Position numbers and translations under genes: made by a program. A stretch of DNA of 64,000 nucleotides from an uncultured Phocaeicola sp. (lineage in GTDB: Bacteria; Bacteroidota; Bacteroidia; Bacteroidales; Bacteroidaceae): positions 1 through 64,000 of the forward strand of contig CALUJE010000003.1 in assembly GCA_944320885.1 (NCBI GenBank). The letters are read 5' to 3'. Below are positions 7,388 to 52,306 of this stretch, in pieces; within the stretch, counting starts at the first letter, position 1; the number at the start of each line of letters is the position of its first letter. A model generated the notes under the pieces. It was not told the DNA's origin and did not search any database. It was given only the letters and a program-made list of their open reading frames with translations.

Positions 7388-8428
7388 ATGGAGAAAAAAA
7401 AGGTCATATTTGTTATTAATCCAAATTCTGGTACACAAAACAAGAAAGGGATTTTTGATTTGATAGAGAAGTACATCGATCGTGAGAAATACGAACATTC
7501 CATATTGTTTACAGAGTTTGCAGGTCATGCTTCAGAAATAGCTTCTATTGCTGCAGCTGAAGATGCATTTATGATTGTGGCAGTTGGCGGAGATGGAACT
7601 GTCAATGAAATAGGACGTGCTCTTGTACATACAAAAACGGCTTTAGGTATCATTCCATGTGGTTCCGGTAACGGGCTAGCCCGTCATTTGATGATTCCAA
7701 TGGACCCTAAAAAAGCAATTGATATAATTAATGAAGGTGTTATTTCTACCATTGATTATGGAGTGATTAATACGATACCGTTTTTTTGTACTTGCGGTGT
7801 TGGCTTTGATGCTTTTGTCAGCTTGAAATTTGCAGAGTCCGGACGTCGGGGTATGTTGACCTATTTGGAAAATATGTTGCATGAGGTTTTGACCTATAAG
7901 CCTGAAACATATGAAATAGAGTTATGTAATGGCGAAGAGAACAGAACGTATAAAGCGTATCTGATAGCATGTGCCAATGCTTCCCAATATGGTAATAACG
8001 CATATATTGCCCCTCAGGCATCATTAGATGATGGTTTGATGGATGTTACTATTCTTGAGCCTTTTACAGTTCTGGATGTACCGGCACTTTCTTTTCAACT
8101 CTTTAATAAGACCATAAACCAAAATAGTAGAATAAAGACTTTTAAATGTCAGAAATTGCGTATCCATCGTATGAATGAAGGGGTCATTCATTTTGATGGA
8201 GATCCTATTATTGCAAGTAAAAATCTCGAAATAGAAATTATACCCAAGGCTCTTAATATTGTCATTAACAATAGAGAAAAGAGGGATTTGAAGAAGCCGG
8301 AATCTCTTTTACAGATATTGGGAGACTATTTCAATGAAGTTAATACCTTGAAAGGAGACTTGTATACTCGTAATAAGAAACTTCAGGAAATACACCGTAA
8401 TCTGTTACGCAAATTTATAAAGAAATAG
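7388..8428 (+). CDS. Diacylglycerol/sphingosine kinase family lipid kinase
   Basis: A 346-residue member of the YegS/DgkB/LCB5 lipid kinase family. The ATP-binding segments are FVINPNSGTQNKKG at the N-terminus, VGGDGTVNEIGRAL (GGDGT motif) near residue 68 and CGSGNGLARHL. The C-terminal half is the beta-sandwich lipid-binding domain, with IHFDGDPI near its end. It phosphorylates a lipid hydroxyl at the inner membrane. The lipid could be diacylglycerol, or a sphingoid base, since the gene is divergent from spt. I used ATG 7388; a GTG at 7379 would add three residues. The stop lies only 2 nt from the stop of the convergent trmN6. Confidence 0.88.
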   Translation: MEKKKVIFVINPNSGTQNKKGIFDLIEKYIDREKYEHSILFTEFAGHASEIASIAAAEDAFMIVAVGGDGTVNEIGRALVHTKTALGIIPCGSGNGLARHLMIPMDPKKAIDIINEGVISTIDYGVINTIPFFCTCGVGFDAFVSLKFAESGRRGMLTYLENMLHEVLTYKPETYEIELCNGEENRTYKAYLIACANASQYGNNAYIAPQASLDDGLMDVTILEPFTVLDVPALSFQLFNKTINQNSRIKTFKCQKLRIHRMNEGVIHFDGDPIIASKNLEIEIIPKALNIVINNREKRDLKKPESLLQILGDYFNEVNTLKGDLYTRNKKLQEIHRNLLRKFIKK

Positions 8429-8430
8429 AT

Positions 8431-9144
8431 TTATAGGTTTATATAAAAGTCCTTTACTAGATTTGAAAATTTTTCCGTGTATGTATGATGTGTTTTTTCT
8501 ATGGAAATATCATCATATTCTGTTTGATTTATCATCTTCTTTCTAAAGCTTAACAATATACGTTTAGGTTCATAACCTTCTAATGTACGGACTATAGTCT
8601 TACGAGACAGGTATAGCTTTAGTCCGGCCGCGTTGGAGATAAATTCGCTGGTATTTTCAAAAGGTATGACGACAGAGAATTCACCATCATCCTGTAAAAG
8701 ATTTGTTACACATTCCAAAAGTTCACTGAATGTTAAGGAGCTTGTATGCCGTGCATTGTTTCGTGCTTTATTCTCGCATTTTAAAGAACGATGGCTGAAA
8801 AACGGAGGGTTCGAAAGAATAAGATCAAACTTATCGGAAGTATCGTATGACTTTATATCAGAATGTATTATTTCAATCCGATCTTTCCATTCAGAGTTCT
8901 CTATATTTTCTTTGGCCTGTTCTGCTGCATCTTTTTCTATCTCAATTCCTGTTATTTGTGCTTTAGGTGTTCTTTGTGCCACCATTAATGATAACAGGCC
9001 ACAGCCAGAGCCTATATCAAGAACTTTTTTTGCATTGTTTACGTCAACCCACGCTCCTAATAGCACACTGTCTGTCCCTACCTTCATGGCACATTTATCA
9101 TGAAAAACAGTAAATTTTTTGAATTTAAAATACGAATTCGGCAT
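8431..9144 (-). CDS. trmN6: tRNA1(Val) A37 N6-methyltransferase TrmN6
   Basis: A 237-residue SAM-dependent methyltransferase of the YfiC/TrmN6 family. Motif I is VLDIGSGCGLLSLMVAQR and motif IV is LILSNPPFF, the NPPF typical of N6-adenine methyltransferases. The N-terminal FKFKKFTVFHDKCAMKVGTD is characteristic of this family and supports the ATG at 9144; an in-frame TTG at 9171 would extend it. The expected role is methylation of A37 in tRNA-Val in the cytoplasm. It is convergent with the lipid kinase gene and divergent from lon. Confidence 0.88.
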   Translation of the reverse strand: MPNSYFKFKKFTVFHDKCAMKVGTDSVLLGAWVDVNNAKKVLDIGSGCGLLSLMVAQRTPKAQITGIEIEKDAAEQAKENIENSEWKDRIEIIHSDIKSYDTSDKFDLILSNPPFFSHRSLKCENKARNNARHTSSLTFSELLECVTNLLQDDGEFSVVIPFENTSEFISNAAGLKLYLSRKTIVRTLEGYEPKRILLSFRKKMINQTEYDDISIEKTHHTYTEKFSNLVKDFYINL

Positions 9145-9273
9145 ATTTATCAAATAAAAATATAATGGCAAAAATAGAAAATATTGGAATATGATTCTTT
9201 AAATTAAGATTATTTGGGAAGTTGCTAAATTATATTTCTAATTTAATATATTCCTTATTTAATAAAGTATGTG

Positions 9274-9281
9274 TAACTTTG
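9274..9281 (+). promoter_or_regulatory. Sigma-ABfr -7 box for lon
   Basis: TAACTTTG matches TAnnTTTG. It lies 57 nt before the lon ATG, so the leader is about 50 nt. The -33 element is not clear. Confidence 0.5.
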
Positions 9282-9337
9282 CAAGCACTTTGCACCTAAA
9301 GATAAAGGGTATCTAACTAAATTTTACATGGTAAAAA

Positions 9338-11824
9338 ATGATAAAAAGAAGATTTAGCGATTTTGAAGAAAATACAGAGCGTGAAACAGCATTCTCTTTA
9401 ATAGCTGATATAGATGGTGATGAAGAACAACTCTTTGAAGGTAAAATAGATAAGTGTTTGCCTATATTGCCATTACGTAATATGGTTCTCTTTCCCGGAG
9501 TTGTACTCCCGGTAGCTGTAGGAAGAAAATCATCTTTGAAACTAATCGATCATGCATATAAAAACAATAAAACGATAGGAACTGTATGCCAGATAAAGGC
9601 TGAAGTTGAACGTCCACTCTTGGAAGATTTGTATTCTGTGGGAACTGTTGCAAAAATCGTTAGGATATTTGAGATGCCTGACCAGACGACAACGGTTATT
9701 CTGCAAGGAATGCAGCGTTTTAATCTTTTGGAAGTGCACGATGAAGTAAATGGAAAATATTTGGAAGGAATTGTGAGTCAGCTATACGAAACATTTCCTC
9801 CAAAAGATGATATGGAATTTAAAGTATTGGTTGATACCTGTAAGGAACTGACTGTTAAATTCATAAAATCTACAGATAATATTCAGAATGAAGCAGCTTT
9901 TGCCATTAAGAATATAAGTAATCCGGTATTCCTGATTAATTTCATATGTGCAAACTTATTGCTGAAAGTTGATGAAAAAGAGCAACTTCTGAAATATGAC
10001 TCTGTTCAGGATAGAGCATACCGTTTACTTGAATTGTTGAAGCGTGAGACTAAGTTGGCGGAATTAAAAGCCAATATACAGATGCGTACGCGAGAGGACA
10101 TAGATCAGCAGCAACGTGAATATTTCCTTCAACAGCAAATGAAGAATATTCAGGACGAGCTCGGTGGTAATCCTCAAGATTTGGAATTTGATGAATTACA
10201 GCGGCGTGCATCTCAGAAGAAGTGGAGCGTTGATGTCCGGAAGGTTTTTGATCGCGAAATGAGTAAATTGGAAAGAACCAATCCTCAGTCTCCGGAATAT
10301 AACGTTCAGCTAAATTATCTGGAAACAATGCTCAGTTTGCCATGGAATGAGTATACCGAAGATAACTTGAACTTGGTTCATGCCGAAAAGGTTTTGAACA
10401 AAGATCACTATGGACTGGAAAAAGTAAAAGAACGTATTCTGGAACATTTGGCGGTCTTGAAGCTTAGAGGTGATCTCAAATCCCCTATCCTGTGCCTGTA
10501 TGGCCCTCCGGGAGTAGGTAAAACATCCTTGGGACGTTCTATTGCTTCTGCGTTGAAGCGCAAATACATTCGGATTTCTTTGGGCGGACTGCATGATGAA
10601 GCTGAAATTCGTGGACACAGACGTACATATATTGGTGCAATGCCCGGTCGAATAATCAAGAGTCTGATAAAAGCCAATTCATCCAACCCTGTATTCATAT
10701 TGGACGAAATAGATAAGGTCAGTCAGAATAATTTCCAGGGAGACCCTTCTTCTGCGCTGCTTGAAGTTTTGGATCCTGAACAAAACAGTACATTCCATGA
10801 TAATTATCTAGATGTGGATTATGATTTGTCTAAAGTTATGTTTATAGCGACAGCCAATAATCTGAACACTATACCGGCACCGTTATTAGATCGTATGGAG
10901 TTAATAGAAGTCAGCGGATATATAACTGAAGAGAAAATAGAAATTGCACGTCGACATCTGGTTCCTAAGGAAATGGAAAATGTGGGAATGGAAAAGGGTA
11001 ATGCCGTAAAATTGCCAAAGAATACTTTGGAAGCAATTATAGAATCATATACTCGTGAATCGGGCGTACGTGAACTTGAGAAAAAAATTGGTAAAGTTTT
11101 CCGTAAGCTGGTTCGTAAGTATGCAACGGATGGCAATTATCCTTTAAAGGAAGTGAAGCCTGCCAATTTGAAAGAATTGTTAGGAGCTCCAGAATATACC
11201 CGTGACAAATATCAGGGAAATGACTATGCCGGTGTTGTTACAGGATTGGCTTGGACTGCAGTAGGTGGTGAAATCTTGTTTGTTGAAACCAGTGTCAGTC
11301 GTGGAAAGGGAGGTCGTTTGACATTAACCGGAAACCTTGGAGATGTCATGAAAGAATCTGCCATGTTGGCCTTGGAATATATAAAAGCACACGCTGCTTT
11401 CCTGAATATCAATCCGGATATATTTGAAAACTGGAATATACATATTCATGTTCCGGAAGGAGCTATTCCCAAAGACGGTCCGTCAGCAGGTATTACAATG
11501 GCGACTTCGTTGGCATCGGCTTTAACTCAAAGAAAAGTTAAAGCAAATCTGGCAATGACCGGTGAGATAACGTTGAGAGGCAAGGTCCTTCCTGTGGGTG
11601 GCATTAAAGAGAAGATTTTGGCTGCAAAACGGGCCGGTATAAAAGAAATCATTTTATGCCAGGATAATAAAAAAGACATTGAAGAAATTCCGGAAATCTA
11701 TTTGAAGGGACTGGAATTCCATTATGTAACAGATGTAAAAGAAGTCTTGAGCATAGCATTGCTTGACGAAAAAGTGAATGATGCTATTGATTTTACAATA
11801 ACCCCTGTCAAAACAGAAGAATGA
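9338..11824 (+). CDS. lon: ATP-dependent protease Lon
   Basis: An 828-residue cytoplasmic AAA+ protease. Domain order: LON substrate-binding N-domain ([19 protein letters not shown], about 42-240); coiled-coil helical region; AAA+ module with Walker [13 protein letters not shown] and Walker [11 protein letters not shown]; and the C-terminal Ser-Lys protease domain. The nucleophile is Ser716 in PKDGPSAGI; the lysine partner lies in GGIKEKIL (757-759). It degrades misfolded and regulatory proteins. The residue 1-40 extension before the N-domain is acidic. The stop overlaps the tgt start by 4 bp (ATGA), making lon the first gene of a lon-tgt-LptF/G operon. Confidence 0.97.
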
Positions 11825-40775: not shown

Positions 40776-40783
40776 TATCTTTG
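40776..40783 (+). promoter_or_regulatory. Sigma-ABfr -7 box for the methyltransferase/DGQHR/helicase operon
   Basis: TATCTTTG, a perfect TAnnTTTG, with TTTC as a weak -33 about 21 bp upstream. The predicted start is near 40790, about 197 nt before the methyltransferase ATG, leaving a long leader with a palindrome and a tiny frame. Confidence 0.5.
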
Positions 40784-40796
40784 TAAATAATAAAGA

Positions 40797-40814
40797 TTTA
40801 ATTCATGAATTAAA
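40797..40814. promoter_or_regulatory. 18-bp perfect palindrome (operator candidate)
   Basis: TTTAATTCATGAATTAAA is its own reverse complement. It begins about 7 nt after the predicted transcript start, the position of a repressor operator. AT-rich palindromes can arise by chance, but 18 perfect positions at this place are notable. Confidence 0.4.
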
Positions 40815-40821
40815 TAAAAAT

Positions 40822-40917
40822 ATGGTATACGAAAAAGATATCAAAACAGAATTAGCTTACATAGAAATTTGGAAAATCTTTTATATAGTTAATTCTTATG
40901 TTTACAATCATAAATAA
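40822..40917 (+). CDS. Possible 31-residue leader peptide
   Basis: A short frame beginning MVYEKDIKTELAYIEIW and ending VYNHK, 32 nt after the predicted start of the operon mRNA and 8 nt after the palindrome. It is rich in Tyr and Ile and has no recognisable domain. It might be a leader or controller peptide, or not translated at all. Confidence 0.2.
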   Translation: MVYEKDIKTELAYIEIWKIFYIVNSYVYNHK

Positions 40918-40986
40918 TCTAATTTTAAAATTATGATATTTTTAAATACAGGTTTAAAAGTATAAATAGGAGAAGTGCATTATTGT

Positions 40987-41907
40987 ATGACAGAAGAGCA
41001 AAATAATAAAATAATTGCAAAACCATTTGTAAAATGGGCTGGTGGAAAAGGAACTCTAATAAAACAGCTTATTGAACATCTTCCAAGTAATTTCAAAGAC
41101 CAACAAAATGTCACCTATATTGAACCTTTTGTTGGAGGTGGAGCTATGTTATTCTACATGCTAACTCATTATCCTAACATCAAACATGCTATTATTAATG
41201 ATGTTAATCAAGATTTAATTAATTGCTATCAATTAATTAAAAAAGATCCAATTAAATTAATAACACTATTAAAATGTTTGAGGGATGAATTTTATCAATT
41301 GACATCAATTGATGAACAAAGTAAATATTATTATCAGAAACGAAAAAAATATAATAACAATGAATTATCAATTGAAGAACGAGCTGCTTGCTTCATTTTT
41401 CTCAATAAGACTTGTTTTAATGGTCTGTATCGAGTTAATACAAGCGGAAAATTCAATGTTCCTTTTGGTAAATACAAAACTCCCAAGATTTGTGATGAGG
41501 ATGTGATAATGGCAGATCATAAAGTTTTGCAAAATGTAGATATATTTTCCGGAGAATATAATAACATAACAAAACATTTAGGAAAAAAGTATAATTTTAT
41601 TTATATAGATCCACCATATCGTCCACTTTCTGAATCTGCATGCTTTATAGAATATACACATAATATATTTAATGATACAGAACAAGAAAAATTAAAAATT
41701 TATTGTGATATGTTAACTCAAAAAGATTGTAAGGTTATGCAAAGTAATTCCAATTCTATAGATAATGATGGAAAACCTTATTTTGTAAAATTATACGATA
41801 CATATCATATTAATCAAGTTAAAGCACACCGATTTATAAATGCTCATGCAGGGAAGCGTGAAAAAGAAACTGAATTACTAATCATGAATTATGAAACTCA
41901 TCAATAA
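40987..41907 (+). CDS. Dam-like (D12 class) DNA adenine N6-methyltransferase
   Basis: A 306-residue methyltransferase of the Dam/DpnM group. Motif X is VKWAGGKGTLIKQL (KWAGGK at 16-21), motif I is YIEPFVGGGAMLFYM (near 44-58), NDVNQDLINCY follows, and motif IV DPPY lies at 208-211 in FIYIDPPYRPLS. It should methylate adenine in a short DNA site. Start: ATG 40987 with AGGAGAAG about 12 nt upstream; a GTG at 40975 would add four residues. It is much more AT-rich than the surrounding core genes, which points to transfer. The next gene follows after 20 nt. Confidence 0.9.
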   Translation: MTEEQNNKIIAKPFVKWAGGKGTLIKQLIEHLPSNFKDQQNVTYIEPFVGGGAMLFYMLTHYPNIKHAIINDVNQDLINCYQLIKKDPIKLITLLKCLRDEFYQLTSIDEQSKYYYQKRKKYNNNELSIEERAACFIFLNKTCFNGLYRVNTSGKFNVPFGKYKTPKICDEDVIMADHKVLQNVDIFSGEYNNITKHLGKKYNFIYIDPPYRPLSESACFIEYTHNIFNDTEQEKLKIYCDMLTQKDCKVMQSNSNSIDNDGKPYFVKLYDTYHINQVKAHRFINAHAGKREKETELLIMNYETHQ

Positions 41908-41927
41908 GTATAAACAAATTTAAGCAT

Positions 41928-44261
41928 ATGGCCTCATTAACAACTTCACAAATTCAAATAATTAAAGAGCATATGACAAATGATGAATCTGTGCTCTCCA
42001 AAAAATTTAGAGCAAGAAAAACTCCTTATATTACACGGAGTATTTTTTTAAATGAGTTAGATGATTACATTAATGAAGGATGGGAAGAAGTTTCTACTTC
42101 GAAATTTAAGGCTAAGATCCAAAAACAAAAACCTGCAGGAATAAAATTTGAGGATGATATTTGGTGTATGTTTTATAATCTTGGATTTAGAATTCTTAAT
42201 TATGACGAAAATTTGGTTATACAATGGGGGGACAAACCAGAAGATAAACATCAATTAGATGTTGTTGCTGTAGGGGAAGAAGCTATATTTGTTGTCGAGT
42301 GTAAAGCAACAGAAAATATTAAAGCTGCATCTTTTAAGAAAGATATAAATGATATATGCCTATATAAGGATGGCATAATGAAAGCTTTACGCCAAATATA
42401 TGGAAATGACAAAAAAGTAAAATTTATTTTTGCTACACGCAATTATACATTTACAGAAGGATGCGAAGATGAAAAGAGGTTAGCAGACAACAAAATATTT
42501 CAATTCACTGATAATACATATGATTATATAAATAGTCTTATAAAGTCATATAAGTCTACCGTTATTTATCAGTTTTATGGTTTGATGTTTCAACATGAAC
42601 GCATTAATAATGATAAAATTCGTATTCCAGCACTAATGGGAACAATGGGTGGTCATAATTATTATATGTTATCAATCGAACCTGCTAAATTGCTAAAGAT
42701 TGGCTTTGTGTTACACCGTACAAAGGTCAACACTCAAATTACAATGCCAACTTACCAGCGATTACTTATTCCTGCTCGATTAAAAGGTATTGGAGAGTTT
42801 ATTGATAAAGGCGGGTATTTCCCTAATACAGTTATTATCAATTTTGATAATTCTAATAAAAAAAATAGAATCCAATTCGATTTAGCACCTGGTGGTTCTG
42901 ACAATACAAAAACCAAATTGGGTTATTTGACTATTCCTAATGCTTACTGTATTGCTTATATCATAGATGGCCAACATAGAGTATATGGGTACGCTAACTC
43001 TAAGTATAAAGACACCAATACAATTCCTGTTGTTGCGTTTGATGGATTACCTTCAGATGAGCAATTAAAGATATTTATGGATATTAACGAACATCAAAAA
43101 GCAGTCAGTCCAAGTTTGAGATTAGATTTGAATGAGGATTTAAACTGGGATTCTCCTTATCTGAACTCTCGTCTAAAAGCACTACGTTCATCAATCATAA
43201 AACAGCTTGGTAGAGATAATAGTAGTGTCTTAGCACGTAAAATCGCGATTGGTGAAGATACTGCAAAACTACAATTAAAACCATTTGATACTGCGCTATC
43301 CAAGTCATCGTTACTACCTAAAGCTACCACAAAAGAGTTTACAGATCATACTGATGTATGCCTTTATAATACAAATTGTGTTGAACATAATAAGGCTATG
43401 CTAGAAGCCCAAAAAAGAATAGTTAATTTGATAAAAGAATGCTATGCTTATGTTTACTACCAAATGATTGATGAACATAAATACGAATACGAAGCATTTA
43501 TTGAGTGTAATCGTGGCACTTATGCCTTTGTTTCATTAATTGCATCACTGAATGAGTACCTCATTCATAGTGGCATATTATCACAAAAATCAAGTACAAA
43601 AGAACAGGTGGACTCAATGACGCCTTATTTTAATATATTGATCAACTATTTGTGCAATATGCCTATAGACGAACGAACACAAATTCAATTAATCAAAGGT
43701 CAAGGTGCAGATACACTATGGCTTCGAATGTATCAAAATGCCATCCATAAACAGATACCTGAATATAACCCAGACGGTTTAGAAGCTTGGTTGGAAACAC
43801 AGGACAAAGATTTACAAGAAGCAGGAAAAGAGTGCGGTCGACAAATCGAAAAGATTGTAAAGGATAGTATTCTTAGAAAACTTGTAGAACTGTATGGAGA
43901 TATGTGGGGAAGTAAGGTGAAAAAAATTATGGGTAAATGTCTTCAGCGTATGGATGACAATGAAGATATCGATAATCAGGATTGGACAGATTTCATGACA
44001 TTACAAGATTACAAAGAGATCATTGAAAACAATTGGAGTATCCAAAAAGATGACGATGAGTCGTTTGTTACATTTGAGGCTGAATTTGCGATACAGGTAT
44101 CGGATTCATTTAGAACAAAGACAGACAAACTTAAATGGATAAACGATTTAATATCATTCAGTAAAGCTTGGACTACAACTAAAGGAAGACCTCTTTCTCT
44201 AACAGAGGTAAATGAAATGCGATCAATATTGCAAAATTTGGCACCAACAGAAGATTTATAA
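41928..44261 (+). CDS. PD-(D/E)XK-like nuclease region fused to DGQHR (DndB-like) domain
   Basis: A 777-residue protein. Residues 70-200 look like a PD-(D/E)XK nuclease core: Glu75 in KFEDDIW, Asp111 in HQLDVVAVG and E124-x-K126 in FVVECKAT. Residues 245-480 form a DGQHR domain: PTYQRLLIPARLKGIGEFI, DGQHR at 347-351, then FMDINEHQKAVSPSLRLDL. DGQHR domains occur in DndB and related phosphorothioate or deazaguanine DNA-modification proteins. The last ~130 residues are helical and recall Swt1/HEPN-like tails without a clear RxxxxH motif. It lies between the methyltransferase and helicase genes and shares a TAATG stop/start with the latter. A DNA-recognition plus cleavage role is inferred. Confidence 0.75.
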   Translation: MASLTTSQIQIIKEHMTNDESVLSKKFRARKTPYITRSIFLNELDDYINEGWEEVSTSKFKAKIQKQKPAGIKFEDDIWCMFYNLGFRILNYDENLVIQWGDKPEDKHQLDVVAVGEEAIFVVECKATENIKAASFKKDINDICLYKDGIMKALRQIYGNDKKVKFIFATRNYTFTEGCEDEKRLADNKIFQFTDNTYDYINSLIKSYKSTVIYQFYGLMFQHERINNDKIRIPALMGTMGGHNYYMLSIEPAKLLKIGFVLHRTKVNTQITMPTYQRLLIPARLKGIGEFIDKGGYFPNTVIINFDNSNKKNRIQFDLAPGGSDNTKTKLGYLTIPNAYCIAYIIDGQHRVYGYANSKYKDTNTIPVVAFDGLPSDEQLKIFMDINEHQKAVSPSLRLDLNEDLNWDSPYLNSRLKALRSSIIKQLGRDNSSVLARKIAIGEDTAKLQLKPFDTALSKSSLLPKATTKEFTDHTDVCLYNTNCVEHNKAMLEAQKRIVNLIKECYAYVYYQMIDEHKYEYEAFIECNRGTYAFVSLIASLNEYLIHSGILSQKSSTKEQVDSMTPYFNILINYLCNMPIDERTQIQLIKGQGADTLWLRMYQNAIHKQIPEYNPDGLEAWLETQDKDLQEAGKECGRQIEKIVKDSILRKLVELYGDMWGSKVKKIMGKCLQRMDDNEDIDNQDWTDFMTLQDYKEIIENNWSIQKDDDESFVTFEAEFAIQVSDSFRTKTDKLKWINDLISFSKAWTTTKGRPLSLTEVNEMRSILQNLAPTEDL

Positions 44262-45919
44262 TGATTGATTATAACGAGTTTTGTCAAAAAGATATCACCC
44301 TTCGTGATTACCAGCAGCTTGCTAAAGAGGAAATCTTTAGCAAGTGGAATTGTGTTGACAATATTTTATACCAAATGCCGACCGGTACAGGTAAAACTCG
44401 ATTATTTACATCGATAATTCGTGATATCAACGTATGGGGCCTCAGACACAATATCAATTATCGAATATTGATTATTGCCCACCGTAGCGAGTTGATCGAG
44501 CAAAGTTCCCATAGCCTAGATAAATATCGTATTAAGCACGGCGTTTTAGCAGGTACGATGAAAGACAAGCGAGATCTAACTCAAGCGATTCAGGTTGCAT
44601 CTATCCAAACTATTACTCACCCATCTAATAGATGTTTAATTGAAAGTCTTCAATTTGACTTCATTATTATTGATGAAGCGCATCATGCAGTAGCTAATTC
44701 TTATCAGAAATTATGGAAATTCTGCCCTAACTCTAAAAAATTGGGAGTCACAGCAACTCCATGGAGAATGAATAATAGTGGTTTTACACAACTCTTTGAT
44801 GCATATATTCCATCTATGTCAATCAAAGAGTTCATTCAAAAGGGATGGTTAGCGGCATATCAGTATTATTCTATTCCTAGTAACTCTGAAATTATTAAAT
44901 CAATAGAATCCATTCGAGAATTTGATATAGAAGGAGACTATAAAAATAGTGTTTTAACTCAAGTCTTCGACACATCAAAAATTAGAGCTCAACTATATAA
45001 TAGTTATGTAAAGAATGCATTGGGTAAAAAAGGCATTATATACAGTATATCTCGTGAACATAGTGAACATATATGTTCTCAATATCGCAGTCATAATATA
45101 GTAATTGAAAACATTGATAGTGAAACTCCAGCGAAGATACGAGAAAACATTATAAAAGCTTTTAAGAATGGAGATATTGATATCATTGTGAACGTTGATA
45201 TATTTTCTGAAGGTTTTGATTGCCCTGATATTGAATTTATTCAATTAGCTAGACCTACCAGATCTTTGGTAAAATATATCCAACAGGTTGGTCGAGGGTT
45301 AAGAAAAAATGGAAATAAACAATGTATCATTTTAGATAATGTCGGCATGTATTCTCGTTTTGGATTACCAGATGAAGATCGTGATTGGGAATCATTTTTT
45401 TATGGAAACAAAATAGAACATTCTATTGAAAAAACGAATTCGCGTAATAAAGGGAACTTGAAAGCTTGTCAAAATATGGATCTCAGTGAAGGAAATGAGG
45501 ACATGATTCTTATTCAAAATTTTGATACTTCACAAATTTCAAAACAAGAGAATTTTACTCAAACTCTTTCAATACCGAAGATCTACACTCAAAAAGAATA
45601 CAAATATCATTTTTCCATTACAAGTAAACAATTTAATTCGGGAAAATATATTATTGAAGAAAATGAAGAAGGATTCTTTATTGTAAATACTAGGACTCTA
45701 AGCAAAATGTTATTAATTAAGATGAGAACCATACGTGGAGGAATAATAATAGTTTCTAAAGAACCTGAAAAAAAATCATTTACAATAATAAAAACTCTGT
45801 CCAATTCTACTTTACATACTCCTTTAAGTTACATTATTGGCACATTACATAAAGAAGGACTATTATTAAAGTTTACCTCTTTTGATAAATCTAAAATAAA
45901 TATAACTATAACAGTTTAA
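44261..45919 (+). CDS. Superfamily II DEAD/DEAH helicase (restriction-type)
   Basis: A 552-residue helicase resembling the translocase subunits of restriction systems. Walker A is QMPTGTGKTRL (39-48), motif Ia is IIAHRSELIEQS, motif II is IIIDEAHHAV (DEAH at 138-141) and motif III is GVTATPWR. The second RecA domain has NVDIFSEGFDCPDIEFI and motif VI QQVGRGLRKNG. Residues 390-552 form a tail I do not recognise. The ATG overlaps the upstream stop (TAATG), so the three genes form one translationally coupled operon. Its role is probably DNA translocation for the nuclease partner. Confidence 0.85.
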   Translation: MIDYNEFCQKDITLRDYQQLAKEEIFSKWNCVDNILYQMPTGTGKTRLFTSIIRDINVWGLRHNINYRILIIAHRSELIEQSSHSLDKYRIKHGVLAGTMKDKRDLTQAIQVASIQTITHPSNRCLIESLQFDFIIIDEAHHAVANSYQKLWKFCPNSKKLGVTATPWRMNNSGFTQLFDAYIPSMSIKEFIQKGWLAAYQYYSIPSNSEIIKSIESIREFDIEGDYKNSVLTQVFDTSKIRAQLYNSYVKNALGKKGIIYSISREHSEHICSQYRSHNIVIENIDSETPAKIRENIIKAFKNGDIDIIVNVDIFSEGFDCPDIEFIQLARPTRSLVKYIQQVGRGLRKNGNKQCIILDNVGMYSRFGLPDEDRDWESFFYGNKIEHSIEKTNSRNKGNLKACQNMDLSEGNEDMILIQNFDTSQISKQENFTQTLSIPKIYTQKEYKYHFSITSKQFNSGKYIIEENEEGFFIVNTRTLSKMLLIKMRTIRGGIIIVSKEPEKKSFTIIKTLSNSTLHTPLSYIIGTLHKEGLLLKFTSFDKSKINITITV

Positions 45920-46051: not shown

Positions 46052-46672
46052 CTATTCAAATTGTTTATTATTTTGAAAGAACAACGGATAATATTTATCT
46101 TGTAAAAACTCATTTTGCAAGTTCTGAAAATCTGCTCGCACACCGGTTACACTCAGCCTGTTATCAAATACTACATAAAAGTCAATAGATACTTTTTGCT
46201 TAACATCTACACCAGTTTTCTGACATTCGGTATTAATAATGCCGTCGTATGTATGCCAAAGTTGCTCTTTGGCTTCATTGGCACGTTGCAAAATGGTCAA
46301 ATTGTTATTCGATGAAACATTGGTTTTAAACTCTATAAAACTAAATTCTTTATCTGTGAGTAAAGCACAATCGCACACACCACCCTGAATATAATGCATT
46401 CCTGTAATAATACAGCCGTCTAAAGGTAATAGTACCAATGTCTTCTTCATGGGGTTTTGAGCATGAAAAGTTTTCGATAGAAATGCTGTAGGCTCGGCAT
46501 TAGTCCAATCAGTATAATGAAGGCCGACATCATCATAGACATACAGATTCTCATCGCTACTTTTATCAAAAGCATTCTCAACTCCTAACGGTCCACAATT
46601 TTTTAACGCTGAGCACAATCGTAATTGAATTATAGCTACAGGCAAATCCTTATTTTGCGAAAGTTTTGGCAT
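46052..46672 (-). CDS. Small PD-(D/E)XK-like protein, partner of AAA ATPase
   Basis: A 206-residue protein that I do not recognise by name. Residues 95-120 read GGVCDCALLT-DKEFSFIEFKTN: an Asp (101), then Glu-Phe-Lys (114-116), spaced like the D...ExK core of PD-(D/E)XK nucleases. The start ATG at 46672 lies inside the last codons of the ATPase gene (23-nt overlap), so the two are translated together. The pair resembles ATPase plus nuclease defence modules (Septu, PARIS and OLD-type pairs are analogues in layout, not shown homologues). The gene is convergent with the helicase operon; 132 bp separate them. Confidence 0.6.
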   Translation of the reverse strand: MPKLSQNKDLPVAIIQLRLCSALKNCGPLGVENAFDKSSDENLYVYDDVGLHYTDWTNAEPTAFLSKTFHAQNPMKKTLVLLPLDGCIITGMHYIQGGVCDCALLTDKEFSFIEFKTNVSSNNNLTILQRANEAKEQLWHTYDGIINTECQKTGVDVKQKVSIDFYVVFDNRLSVTGVRADFQNLQNEFLQDKYYPLFFQNNKQFE

Positions 46673-47861
46673 ACAATCGATATAATTGATTAAAAATTCT
46701 GTTTATCTCATCTGAACAAGAATCCAAATCATTCTTTGCTATCATTCCTGTATTAGCATTCAGTATGGATTCACAATAATTCTCATCTTTAGAAGACAGA
46801 CGATAAGCTGCCACATCGTATTCATCAAGATGGTAAATTTGCGGCAAAATATTTTCTACTTTTCCCTTATCATCTTCGTTTGCCTTTTTATAAATTTTCG
46901 CTCCCATTATCAGCATATTCAGAATTGCCAAAGAATAAGGGCTGTGCGAAGTAAGCACAAGCATGTTTTGTTTTGAGGAAGCATTGATAGCAACCAAAGA
47001 ACGTAAAACTTCCATTTGAGATTCTGGGAAGAGATTCAACTCCGGCTCTTCAACAACATTAATAAAACGGTCATATCTATTTGCTGATGAAAGCTGACGG
47101 AGCATCATATCTTTAATGCTATCAGAAATAGCATCATCTTGCATAATATCAGCCACTCGCTTTTCAAGTTTGTCCTTTTCTTCTTTGGTAAGTTTAACTT
47201 CTTCACGATCAACTATTATCTTGCTAAGATATTCAGATACCATGCACATAGGAAGTGACGATTGTATACCGCTTGAAGCATTGATAAGACGTACTTTATA
47301 ATCGGTTCCACTAATCCATCCAACCTCGTTTAGCGAATCATATTCAAAACACAATCCCTCAAATGGAAGCTCATAGCCACTTTTAAAGAATTTTTTTGCG
47401 TTTACAAATTCATCAGAAAAGGTTTCACTTGAATCTGGAAGCTCTTTCAACAGCTTTGTCTTATTTTCTGCAACACTTACAATTGAACGTTCTGCAGGAA
47501 TATACATAATCTTTGAGAGTCCATCAACGTTTTTATTTTTGTCGTATATTTTAAATGAACCATCAGAATAGACAAAATCATACAAATAACTTTCAAACTT
47601 CAGATATGAAGTAGTCTGGATGAAAGACTCTATTCTATGATAAGGACATAGCTTGGTTAAAAAACGATTGTATTGTTCGAAATAATTTAGTTTATATTTT
47701 TTCTGACTCAAAACCTTTTCCAGCCATTTGAACATAGAAAAAAGTTTTGCGACACAGCTTTTACCTGTCCCCTGATCGCCAATGAACAATGTAATCTTCT
47801 TAAAAGTGATATCAAGATCCTTAATTGGACCAAATGATTTAACTATTAATCGCTCATTCAT
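46650..47861 (-). CDS. AAA/ABC-type ATPase (AAA_15-like)
   Basis: A 403-residue ATPase of the RecF/SMC/OLD-like class. Walker A is FIGDQGTGKSCVAKLF (28-40), an ABC-type signature is NASSGIQSSLPMCM, Walker B is VVEEPELNLFPESQ, and the H-loop is VLTSHSPYSLAIL. The middle is helical. Such stand-alone ATPases often sense phage proteins or DNA and control an attached effector. The 206-residue nuclease-like product is the natural effector candidate, given the 23-nt gene overlap. It is transcribed leftward, away from the CobW remnant. Confidence 0.82.
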   Translation of the reverse strand: MNERLIVKSFGPIKDLDITFKKITLFIGDQGTGKSCVAKLFSMFKWLEKVLSQKKYKLNYFEQYNRFLTKLCPYHRIESFIQTTSYLKFESYLYDFVYSDGSFKIYDKNKNVDGLSKIMYIPAERSIVSVAENKTKLLKELPDSSETFSDEFVNAKKFFKSGYELPFEGLCFEYDSLNEVGWISGTDYKVRLINASSGIQSSLPMCMVSEYLSKIIVDREEVKLTKEEKDKLEKRVADIMQDDAISDSIKDMMLRQLSSANRYDRFINVVEEPELNLFPESQMEVLRSLVAINASSKQNMLVLTSHSPYSLAILNMLIMGAKIYKKANEDDKGKVENILPQIYHLDEYDVAAYRLSSKDENYCESILNANTGMIAKNDLDSCSDEINRIFNQLYRLYAKTFAK

Positions 47862-48126: not shown

Positions 48127-48180
48127 TAGCCTGACGTAAATACCCCATCCAATCCATAGGAAGATATTTACATCAGGCTA
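48127..48180 (-). terminator. CobW terminator, left copy
   Basis: A hairpin with arms near TAGCCTGACGTAAATA (left) and TATTTACATCAGGCTA (right), standing 21 bp after the stop of the truncated CobW remnant. The same structure follows the intact gene at 50997-51049, with several base differences. Confidence 0.6.
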
Positions 48181-48201
48181 TCAAATACTGTCACACTACA
48201 G

Positions 48202-48358
48202 TTACTCCAGACATTCGTCCAGATCGTGAGCCAATTTTTTCTTATCCAGGTGCTGACCGATAAATACGATCTTCTGCATGCGGTCACCGTATTTCTCGTC
48301 CCAGTCACGGAGTAAATCGGGTTCCTGTTTCAACAACTCTATGAGGTCTTCTTCGGGA
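48202..48358 (-). pseudogene. 3' remnant of a second CobW-type GTPase gene
   Basis: Read leftward this encodes about 52 residues from PEEDLIELLKQEPDLLRDW to LAHDLDECLE and a stop. It matches the C-terminus of the intact CobW at 51074, with one amino-acid change (DKKKL for DKEKL). The nucleotide differences are mostly silent, about eight in 157 bp. Similarity ends abruptly at 48358, where transposase sequence begins. With the terminator copy, the direct repeat spans 48127-48358 and 50997-51230. Confidence 0.85.
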
Positions 48359-49504: not shown

Positions 49505-49533
49505 ACAGATATAAATCCGCATAATAATTGACC

Positions 49534-49842
49534 ATGGACGAACAGCAAAACAACGGAAATATAATTCTCTACCAGACAGAGGATGGCAAATCAAGGATAG
49601 AAGTAACTCTATGCAAAGATACGGTTTGGCTTACAGCCGACCAGATGGCAGAGCTGTTTAAAAGAAACAAATCTACCATTTCACGGCATATAAAGAATGT
49701 ATTCGATGATGGAGAATTGCAGGCAGACAAGGTTGTTGCATTTTTTGCAACAACCACTCAGCATGGTGCTATCAAAGAGAAAGTACAGTTCAGAATATTA
49801 GACACAAAGACAGATAAACGATTTTTATTATGCCCAAGATAA
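49534..49842 (+). pseudogene. Truncated RhuM-family protein
   Basis: The frame encodes 102 residues: IILYQTEDGKSRIEVTLCKD, then TVWLTADQMAELFKRNKSTI and SRHIKNVFDDGEL. This is the N-terminal DNA-binding-like part of RhuM (virulence RhuM) proteins, often found between hsd genes. After FATTTQHG the match stops and the frame ends over the Fic start (13-nt overlap). Full RhuM is about 330 residues, so this is a fragment. The first ATG is at 49534. Confidence 0.7.
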
Positions 49843-50714
49843 ACAAAATATCCATACGTTTCTTTGACGACCGAGAAGTACGTGCCATTTGGGATGACGA
49901 AAATTCCAAATGGTGGTTTTCTGTACTTGATATTGTAGGCGTTCTTAATGCTCAAGATGATTATACCAAGAACAGAAACTATTGGAAGTATTTGAAAAAC
50001 AAGCTGAAGAACGAGAATAATGAAGTGGTTAGTGTCACTAACCAGTTGAAATTAACTGCACCTGACGGCAAGAAAAGACTTACAGACGTCCTTGATAACA
50101 AAGGAGTCCTTTCTCTTGCGGCATGTTTCCCTAATACCAAAGCTGCACGGTTTGTTGAATGGTTTACCAACAGTGATGAAACGATAGACGGACGAAGCAA
50201 ATCGAAAGCTTATACTCTGTTTGAAAGCAGTCTGATTGACAGCATTGAGGTAGGAACCATAAAAGGTTTGCAGCAGATTCATGCCTATTTGTTTGGCGGA
50301 CTATACGACTTTGCCGGACAGATACGCACGGTAAACATAGCCAAAGGAGGATTCCAGTTTGCAATGGTTCAATATCTTCAAGCTACATTGGAACAGATAG
50401 AACGTATGCCCGAAACAAGTTTCGATGAGATAATAGACAAGTATGTGGAGATGAACATAGCCCATCCTTTCCGTGAAGGCAACGGACGTGCCACACGTAT
50501 TTGGCTTGACCTGATGCTGAAGAAAAATCTTAAAGTTTGTGTGGACTGGAGCAATGTAAACAAGCAATCTTATCTGGATGCCATGACTCACAGTGTGGCT
50601 AATGCTGAAGAATTGAAAGTACTTCTTCGCCCTGCACTTACCGACAAGATTAATGACCGGGAAACCTTTATGAAAGGTATTGATTACTCATATTATTATG
50701 AACAGGAAGATTAA
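49830..50714 (+). CDS. Bro-N/Fic fusion protein
   Basis: A 294-residue protein. Residues 8-118 form a Bro-N-type domain ([39 protein letters not shown]), known from phage antirepressors. Residues 125-285 form a Fic domain with the complete core [12 protein letters not shown] (HPFREGNGR at 212-220) and the flap region [14 protein letters not shown]. Fic enzymes transfer AMP or other nucleotide groups to protein hydroxyls. Such genes are common between hsdM and hsdS of type I systems, as here. No inhibitory helix motif is evident to me. It is the only gene of this remnant locus that looks intact. Confidence 0.85.
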
Positions 50715-50996: not shown

Positions 50997-51049
50997 TAGC
51001 CTGGTAAATACCCTACCCGATCCATAGGTTAGATATTTACATCAGGCTA
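50997..51049 (-). terminator. CobW terminator, right copy
   Basis: A hairpin of TAGCCTGGTAAATA with TATTTACATCAGGCTA, 25 nt after the stop of the intact CobW gene; leftward it runs into TTGAATATTC. It is homologous to 48127-48180 and forms part of the 230-bp direct repeat. Confidence 0.6.
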
Positions 51050-51073
51050 TCAAATACTGTCGCACACTACACG

Positions 51074-52306
51074 TTACTCCAGACATTCGTCCAAATCGTG
51101 AGCCAGTTTTTCCTTATCCAGATGCTGTCCGATAAATACGATCTTCTGCATGCGGTCACCGTATTTCTCGTCCCAGTCACGGAGCAAATCGGGCTCCTGT
51201 TTCAACAGCTCTATGAGGTCTTCTTCGGGAGCGGTGGCATACCATTGCCCGGCCTCTGTAAGCTTTTTCTGTATGCCGGCCTGTTCGAAAAGGTATGACA
51301 TATCACGGTTATCACTGAAATAGCATACACCTTTGGAGCGGATTATGTTCTTAGGCCAGCGTGTGGCTATAAAATGATCGAGTTTCTGAAGATTAAATGC
51401 CGGACGACGATAATATACAAAAGTTCCTATGCCATATTCTTCCACTTCTCCCCCTTCGTGGTCATGATGGTGGTGGTGATGGTGGTGCTCTTCTTCTTCG
51501 TGATGATGTTCTTCCTCATCATGGTGATGGTGACTGCCGTGAGCATGTGCTTCACGTTCCTCTTCCGGAGTTGCCGCACGCTCAATTTCACGAATCCAAC
51601 CGGCAGAAACGGCCGTGTGCTCAAAATTGAACAGACGGGTGTTCAGCAATTTATCCAGATCGACATCGGCGTAATTACATTCTATAATTTCTGCGGCAGG
51701 CTGAAGCGTACGGATAATCTTCTTGATACGGCCCAATTCTTCAGGGGAAACTTCATCTGCCTTGTTCAGCAGAATAATATTGCAGAATTCTATCTGCTGC
51801 ACTATCAGATTCTCAATATCTTCTTCGTCAAGTCCTTTACGGGTCAGACTGTCACCACATGAGAACTCGCTTTGCAGACGCAAGGCGTCGACAACACTTA
51901 CGATGCAGTCCAGACGGCAGATGCCGTAACGGGTATAGGCATCGCCCAGACGGGGAATGGAACAAAGGGTCTGTGCAATAGGTTCAGGTTCACAGATTCC
52001 ACTGGCTTCGATAACAATGTAATCAAAACGCTCCAGCTTCATCAGTTCATAAACCTGCTCTATAAGATCGGCTTTCAGTGTGCAACAAATACAACCGTTC
52101 TGCAATGCTACCAGACTGTCGTCTTTCTTGCCTACTACTCCCCCTTTCTGAATAAGAGATGCATCAATATTTACCTCACCTATATCGTTTACGATTACGG
52201 CAAAACGGATACCTCTTTTATTGGCCAGAATACGGTTTACCAAAGTGGTCTTGCCGCTGCCCAGGTAACCTGTAAGCAGCAGTATGGGAATTTCTTTCTG
52301 TTTCAT
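51074..52306 (-). CDS. CobW/COG0523 family GTPase with His-rich metal-binding segment
   Basis: A 410-residue metal chaperone-type GTPase. The P-loop is LLTGYLGSGKTTLVNRIL, the signature metal motif is QNGCICCTLKADL (CxCC), guanine recognition is LLNKADEV, and the C-terminal CobW_C domain is present. Residues 251-291 form a His/Glu-rich run with about 20 histidines, typical of zinc- or cobalt-handling members. Whether it serves zinc or the cobalamin pathway cannot be decided from sequence. The intergenic region upstream carries a four-unit CACGTGT array and a promoter box at 52371-52378. Its 3' end is duplicated at 48.2 kb. Confidence 0.9.
   Translation of the reverse strand: MKQKEIPILLLTGYLGSGKTTLVNRILANKRGIRFAVIVNDIGEVNIDASLIQKGGVVGKKDDSLVALQNGCICCTLKADLIEQVYELMKLERFDYIVIEASGICEPEPIAQTLCSIPRLGDAYTRYGICRLDCIVSVVDALRLQSEFSCGDSLTRKGLDEEDIENLIVQQIEFCNIILLNKADEVSPEELGRIKKIIRTLQPAAEIIECNYADVDLDKLLNTRLFNFEHTAVSAGWIREIERAATPEEEREAHAHGSHHHHDEEEHHHEEEEHHHHHHHHDHEGGEVEEYGIGTFVYYRRPAFNLQKLDHFIATRWPKNIIRSKGVCYFSDNRDMSYLFEQAGIQKKLTEAGQWYATAPEEDLIELLKQEPDLLRDWDEKYGDRMQKIVFIGQHLDKEKLAHDLDECLE

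Follow-up and report, generated by a model that had tools for sequence, protein, structure and literature searches.

A cassette of three genes, encoding a DNA adenine methyltransferase, a 777-residue protein with a DGQHR domain and a helicase, lies in the first 64,000 nucleotides of contig CALUJE010000003.1 (forward strand) of an uncultured Phocaeicola sp. (assembly GCA_944320885.1); this whole stretch is referred to as the window. The conserved core consists of two genes, those for the methyltransferase and the DGQHR protein, and belongs to a widespread, apparently undescribed and restriction-like family of methyltransferases paired with multi-domain DGQHR nucleases. The cassette and its parts are as follows:

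40975-45919, + strand: operon of three co-directional open reading frames (methyltransferase, DGQHR protein and helicase)
40975..41907, + strand: Dam/DpnM-type N6-adenine methyltransferase of the D12 class, 310 residues (PF02086, TIGR00571, 2dpm)
41928..44261, + strand: 777-residue effector candidate with PD-(D/E)XK, ParB-fold DGQHR and helical HEPN-like C-terminal parts (profiles, model, homologues)
41928..42602, + strand: Can2/Card1-like nuclease region, residues 1-225 (VIA-align; conservation of D-ExK)
42621..43127, + strand: DGQHR domain of the ParB-Srx NTPase fold, residues about 232-400 (TIGR03187; VIA-align to ParB)
43800..44258, + strand: HEPN-like C-terminal region, residues about 625-777 (PF18731 in relatives; weak Csm6 similarity; motif table)
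44261..45919, + strand: accessory superfamily 2 (SF2) helicase, 552 residues, resembling RadD and the SauUSI helicase (Pfam/NCBIfam profiles; adjacent in 22 loci)

An earlier sequence-only reading of this DNA had described three tightly coupled, AT-rich genes, and that description stands: the genes are co-directional, the first two are 20 bp apart, the second and third are joined by a TAATG stop/start overlap, and the GC content of the cassette is 0.27-0.35, against 0.45-0.52 for most of the host genes flanking it. The span then proposed, 40776-45919, ends correctly but starts some 200 bp ahead of the first codon at 40975, a GTG with an alternative in-frame ATG at 40987. Scans of the operon for sigma-70 promoters and terminators gave nothing above shuffled sequences.

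To collect homologues of the large protein, 84,980 species genomes were scanned and 80 loci kept, nearly all matching over most of the protein length; viral-collection contigs added nine loci, and plasmids and whole genomes supplied others (loci are designated here by L numbers). In 83 of 95 loci the gene for the large protein has a D12 methyltransferase gene as its immediate neighbour on the same strand, so the expected co-occurrence of homologues elsewhere is borne out. The anticipated three-gene unit recurs as a trio in 22 loci, but the conserved unit is limited to the methyltransferase and the DGQHR protein. Among the 12 loci outside the 83, three lie at contig ends (L061, L064, L083) and three have split or overlapping gene calls (L086, L093) or a methyltransferase on the opposite strand (L057). 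The other six are apparent exceptions, namely the plasmid relatives L010 and L011, together with L012, L056 and L106, and L085, where a DpnII restriction endonuclease and a second methyltransferase replace the adjoining D12 enzyme. Single-domain DGQHR genes, taken as a control, have a D12 neighbour in one of 23 loci (L018). There (7594-10085, - strand) the single-domain gene, the methyltransferase and a small predicted membrane protein form an apparent operon. An Acinetobacter plasmid operon (L014, 427-4303) holds a methyltransferase, a NotI-family restriction endonuclease, a single-domain DGQHR protein and a hypothetical gene.

The large protein occurs in Bacteroidota, Pseudomonadota, Bacillota and Campylobacterota, and in one Cloacimonadota metagenome-assembled genome (MAG). 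The phyla are intermixed in the effector tree, which fits horizontal transfer. Within the genus, one of 15 genomes is positive, and the protein is found near full length in three of 395 Bacteroidota genomes, the source genome included. Gene order varies, with the methyltransferase first in most loci and the effector first in a few (L105, L109-L111); since the methyltransferase lies 3' of the effector in these few, the link between the two was probably re-established repeatedly. Some relatives adjoin other defence genes. In L010 (7989-17860) and L011 (4185-14573) the nuclease protein has as neighbours a radical SAM protein, another DGQHR protein, GHKL-type ATPase genes and a PIN-like gene; this may be a further modification or defence cluster based on DGQHR.

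The 777-residue protein was modelled with AlphaFold2 (alignment of 46 sequences, mean pLDDT, the predicted local distance difference test, 88) and compared with solved structures by VIA-align. Foldseek with the whole model returned no match at E <= 1e-3. The domains were assigned from VIA-align and profiles instead; the VIA-align Z values are moderate and agree with the sequence profiles (weak for NERD and Card1, strong for DGQHR). In the model, residues about 1-225 resemble 1y88 (Z 11.0) and the nuclease half of Card1 (Z 9.1) and Can2 (Z 9.0), a PD-(D/E)XK fold. The core residues are E75 (42150), D111 (42258) and E124-x-K126 (42297-42305), conserved in 87 (E75), 88 (D111), 86 (E124) and 83 (K126) of 91 full-length relatives. 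The sequence-only reading had noticed both this D-ExK core, complete in 81 of the 91, and the DGQHR motif, which is unchanged in all 91. The motif (42966-42980) belongs to a domain matched by TIGR03187 (4.7e-31) and by a second DGQHR/DndB profile (8.5e-15; Pfam/NCBIfam). Q277-R278, F383 and N387 are likewise invariant in the 91. Residues about 236-392 align with Caulobacter ParB (Z 8.3, 2.7 A over 99 residues) and are also similar to sulfiredoxin. DndB-like ParB-fold proteins bind ATP or GTP (PMC12704722), and DUF262, a domain related to DGQHR, is part of GmrSD-type modification-dependent nucleases (PMC4619093). For these reasons, the domain is proposed to act as a nucleoside triphosphate (NTP) switch.

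The C-terminal domain of the window protein (residues 625-777) is predicted to be HEPN-like but degenerate. Its match to the HEPN part of Csm6 is weak (Z 5.7; 4.4-5.7 across models, an isolated C-terminal model included), and the HEPN_Swt1 profile PF18731 reaches 27.7 bits in a fragment from L016 (cut-off 27.5), is weaker in two other relatives and is not found in the window copy. An RNx4H-type motif is present in 54 of 89 scorable relatives and is kept by most other Bacteroidota and Pseudomonadota copies, whereas the window copy has SKAWTT instead. The RNx4-6H catalytic motif is found neither in the window protein nor in any helicase-bearing copy.

The first gene had been read as an adenine methyltransferase from its KWAGGK and DPPY motifs, and the profiles agree (MethyltransfD12 PF02086, 4.7e-54; TIGR00571 dam, 1.7e-80; Pfam and NCBIfam). 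Besides KWAGGK, the protein carries an NGLYRVN...FNVPFGKYK hairpin and DPPYRPLS. The hairpin (NGLYRVN...NVPFGKYK) and DPPYxPLS are common to the window enzyme, DpnM and LlaDCHI M1, and E. coli Dam nearly shares them. The top match in the PDB is DpnM (2dpm, E 2.4e-49), and in the tree the window enzyme clusters in a clade with LlaDCHI M1. The genome assembly yielded no second D12 methyltransferase gene. A second methyltransferase of the DpnA type (N6_N4) is encoded at L027, L034-L036, L039, L085, L101 and L102, and in relatives of the same methyltransferase class as the window it is 57.5% identical to the LlaDCHI enzyme of pSRQ700. The DpnII restriction endonuclease (PF04556) is present only in the relatives L101, L102 and L085, the first two of which share the methyltransferase class of the window. 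We take LlaDCHI to be the system encoded by pSRQ700, and LlaDCHI and DpnII both to cut GATC. Because DpnM is the top structural match, LlaDCHI M1 falls in the same clade and same-class relatives have DpnII and DpnA partners, the target site of the window methyltransferase is probably GATC. In a Clostridium MAG (L030) the methyltransferase is split into two open reading frames (9101-9550 and 9573-9995) by a frameshift or a sequencing error.

Most loci without a helicase carry another methyltransferase class, with DPPYTVxH. Why should such similar effectors be paired with such different methyltransferases? The effectors of L048 and L062 are 72% identical and those of L101 and L096 65%; their methyltransferases are 30% and 29% identical, respectively, and of different classes. 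Along the effector tree, the class switches at least four times. This hints that the effector is not bound to one recognition sequence. Dam and DpnM are divergent in sequence, yet both read GATC; different classes thus need not mean different specificities.

The third gene had been called a DEAH helicase, and the profiles bear this out (ResIII 1.6e-27, Helicase_C 7.4e-17; Pfam/NCBIfam). It has the motifs QMPTGTGKT, DEAH, ATPWR, SEGFD and QQVGRGLR, and its top PDB matches are 7clg and 6jde (SauUSI/RadD). The 22 loci where it is adjacent fall essentially into a single Bacteroidales branch, apart from two Bacillota MAGs that may be transfers or binning errors. A role as a core component was rejected, since the helicase accompanies only 22 of 91 full-length loci and has free-standing relatives elsewhere in Bacteroidota, one of them 45% identical and in the source genome; it is a later addition in one branch. 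All 22 helicase-bearing loci lack the RNx4H motif of HEPN, but the motif is also gone, without a helicase, in the sister lineages L038 and L042 and in a Bacillota branch. Helicase and HEPN states change only twice each on the effector tree, so that a trade-off between them finds no statistical support as an independent correlation. In L031 (9550-9993) and ten further loci, part of the helicase-bearing branch, a DUF7226 winged-helix-like protein of about 148 residues lies between methyltransferase and effector and may be a controller or a DNA-binding subunit. The degenerate HEPN-like C terminus, the optional helicase and the DpnM likeness of the methyltransferase all go beyond what had been read from the sequence before.

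The sequence-only reading knew of no named system with exactly this trio, and identity with any was rejected: PADLOC, NCBIfam, Pfam and PHROGs match single domains only, and the open literature (preprints excepted) yielded no account of a methyltransferase paired with a DGQHR nuclease. The PADLOC library of 2023 has no specific full-length model for the 777-residue protein and matches it only through DpdB over part of its length (229-440) and weakly through CARF-PDDEXK. PD-lambda-5, described as a compacted restriction-modification (R-M) and abortive-infection system, whose B protein is a D12-type methyltransferase, was also considered, but no PD-Lambda-5 model matched the protein. The cassette shares the D12 class of M1 with the GATC Type II systems DpnII and LlaDCHI, and some relatives have a DpnA-type M2 or the DpnII endonuclease. 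However, the effector in the window is an unrelated PDDEXK-ParB-HEPN protein accompanied by an SF2 helicase, the window operon has no DpnA-type second methyltransferase, and a scan of the cassette proteins and neighbouring ones in the window found no PF04556. With DndB and DpdB it shares the ParB-fold DGQHR domain (TIGR03187; DpdB profile 2e-14). Differently from these, the window protein has additional nuclease and HEPN-like domains and a DNA adenine methyltransferase as partner; it scores 32.2 bits against the TIGR03233 equivalog cut-off of 328 bits for DndB, and no dndACDE or dpdA/dpdC modification genes adjoin the cassette in the window.

GmrSD, SspE and BrxU (DUF262 with DGQQR, plus HNH) also join a ParB/Srx-fold NTPase with a DGQ(H/Q)R motif to a nuclease (PMC4619093). 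Here the nuclease is an N-terminal PD-(D/E)XK domain and a methyltransferase is encoded alongside; the Pfam scan of the window protein found the related DGQHR domain only, with neither DUF262 nor DUF1524/HNH. As in PrrC-EcoprrI and other combinations of HEPN with R-M, most relatives link a Swt1-type HEPN to an R-M-like locus, but here the HEPN part shares one chain with ParB and PDDEXK domains, and in the window copy its motif has eroded. The helicase, for which SauUSI and RadD are the best PDB matches, differs from them in standing alone; its chain shows neither a nuclease nor an SRA-like domain. In contrast to Type I and III R-M, helicase and nuclease are on separate genes, and no HsdS or Mod lies beside the cassette genes in the window. 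HEPN-ParB fusions and a general linkage of HEPN with R-M were already reported in 2013 (PMC3710099), where a Swt1-HEPN/ParB fusion (Saro_3948), a possible member of the present family, is listed; the portion of that paper considered here does not describe pairing with a Dam-type methyltransferase.

We read the cassette as a restriction-modification-like defence system, with a probability of roughly 0.62. The Dam/DpnM-type enzyme would methylate adenine on host DNA, most likely in GATC, and because it is co-encoded, protection of the host by methylation is the simplest reading. Restriction would fall to the 777-residue protein, with its ParB-fold DGQHR domain as an NTP-binding switch for DNA status and its PD-(D/E)XK domain cutting DNA without the methyl mark. 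In most relatives, the C-terminal HEPN RNase may add a second, abortive strike; the Bacteroidales branch of the window would have lost the HEPN active site and gained a RadD-like SF2 helicase, which probably translocates on, or processes, target or cleaved DNA. A methyltransferase genetically linked to a nuclease gene, the generic hallmark of R-M, is what is found (83 of 95 adjacent; D-ExK in 81 of 91), and since the DGQHR protein is the sole recognised nuclease beside the methyltransferase in most loci, a restriction-like function is the best reading. Several observations support defence, as the sequence-only reading had proposed: the pair recurs in at least five phyla, is present sporadically, occurs on viral-collection contigs and in some relatives has defence genes as neighbours. 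The helicase, which that reading had included, is an accessory and not part of the core. Several findings weigh against this reading. The plasmid relatives L010 and L011 have no methyltransferase, and D-ExK is eroded in 10 of 91 relatives, so cleavage may not be universal. L101, L102 and L085 hold a DpnII endonuclease together with the DGQHR protein, which therefore need not be the primary restriction enzyme. Close effectors with different methyltransferase classes disfavour a classical sequence-specific restriction endonuclease, and the link between helicase and HEPN is not statistically independent.

It is possible that the DGQHR protein is instead a backup or abortive-infection guard, sensing loss or inhibition of its partner methyltransferase or R-M system, or DNA cut by R-M, and then killing or arresting the cell by its nuclease or HEPN activity. 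PrrC, a HEPN protein beside an R-M system, acts in this way beside EcoprrI (PMC3710099). L101, L102 and L085, which place the protein inside a DpnII-type set of endonuclease and second methyltransferase, would suit a guard, as would the HEPN motif in 54 of 89 relatives and effectors that stay 65-72% conserved despite a change of methyltransferase class. Most loci, however, show no other recognised restriction enzyme by the pair (neighbours having been only partly scanned), and the window copy has kept its DNase motif without that of HEPN; we consider such a guard unlikely. The exchange of classes, at least four times on the tree and with methyltransferases only 29-30% identical beside effectors 65-72% identical, could alternatively mean that the methyltransferase is an exchangeable specificity subunit in complex with the DGQHR protein, which would cut near methyltransferase-bound unmethylated sites by a logic like that of Types I and III. 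Such a complex is hypothetical, and the divergence of Dam and DpnM, both specific for GATC, deprives the class changes of force as proof of different specificities; we consider the proposal distinctly improbable. A function outside defence, with an epigenetic or regulatory methyltransferase and a DndB-like ATP-dependent repressor, accords poorly with the conserved PD-(D/E)XK and frequent HEPN motifs, the sporadic distribution, the DpnII-type partners and the recruitment of a helicase, and seems very improbable. More tentatively, and with more doubt than belief, the restriction-like reading can be extended to a ParB-type NTP-switch protein whose DNase and RNase arms are licensed by whichever D12 methyltransferase pairs with it. 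The methyltransferase would give specificity and the DGQHR domain would read methylation state as self or non-self; the helicase-bearing GATC branch would be derived, its RNase arm traded for a motor.

The neighbours of the cassette in the window are a glycoside-hydrolase-like gene, a PDC-M29 pair, an IS4 fragment, and Fic and CobW-like genes. The pair (46052-47861, - strand), directly 3' of the cassette and convergent with it, matches the PADLOC candidate PDC-M29A/B, an AAA ATPase with a small partner. At 49528-50714 (+ strand), a short PDC-S05-like open reading frame is followed by a Bro-N and Fic protein (PDC-S04, NmFic-type adenylyltransferase). A duplication (48162-48358 and 51031-51230, 95-97% identical) comprises the 3' end of the cobW-like gene with the flank downstream of it; the copies lie on either side of the IS4-family transposase fragment and the Bro-N/Fic gene, resembling an integration or recombination scar. 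In the empty-site comparison with relatives from the genus, both flanks were never found together in any relative examined.

A restriction-like family that crosses phyla and is apparently undescribed enlarges the known repertoire of bacterial defence. Together with this, the poorly understood DGQHR/DndB domain gains a context in which its role is directly testable, because the partner methyltransferase, the predicted site (GATC) and the catalytic residues can all be named. Where sequence specificity comes from becomes a sharp experimental question, since similar effectors pair with different methyltransferase classes.

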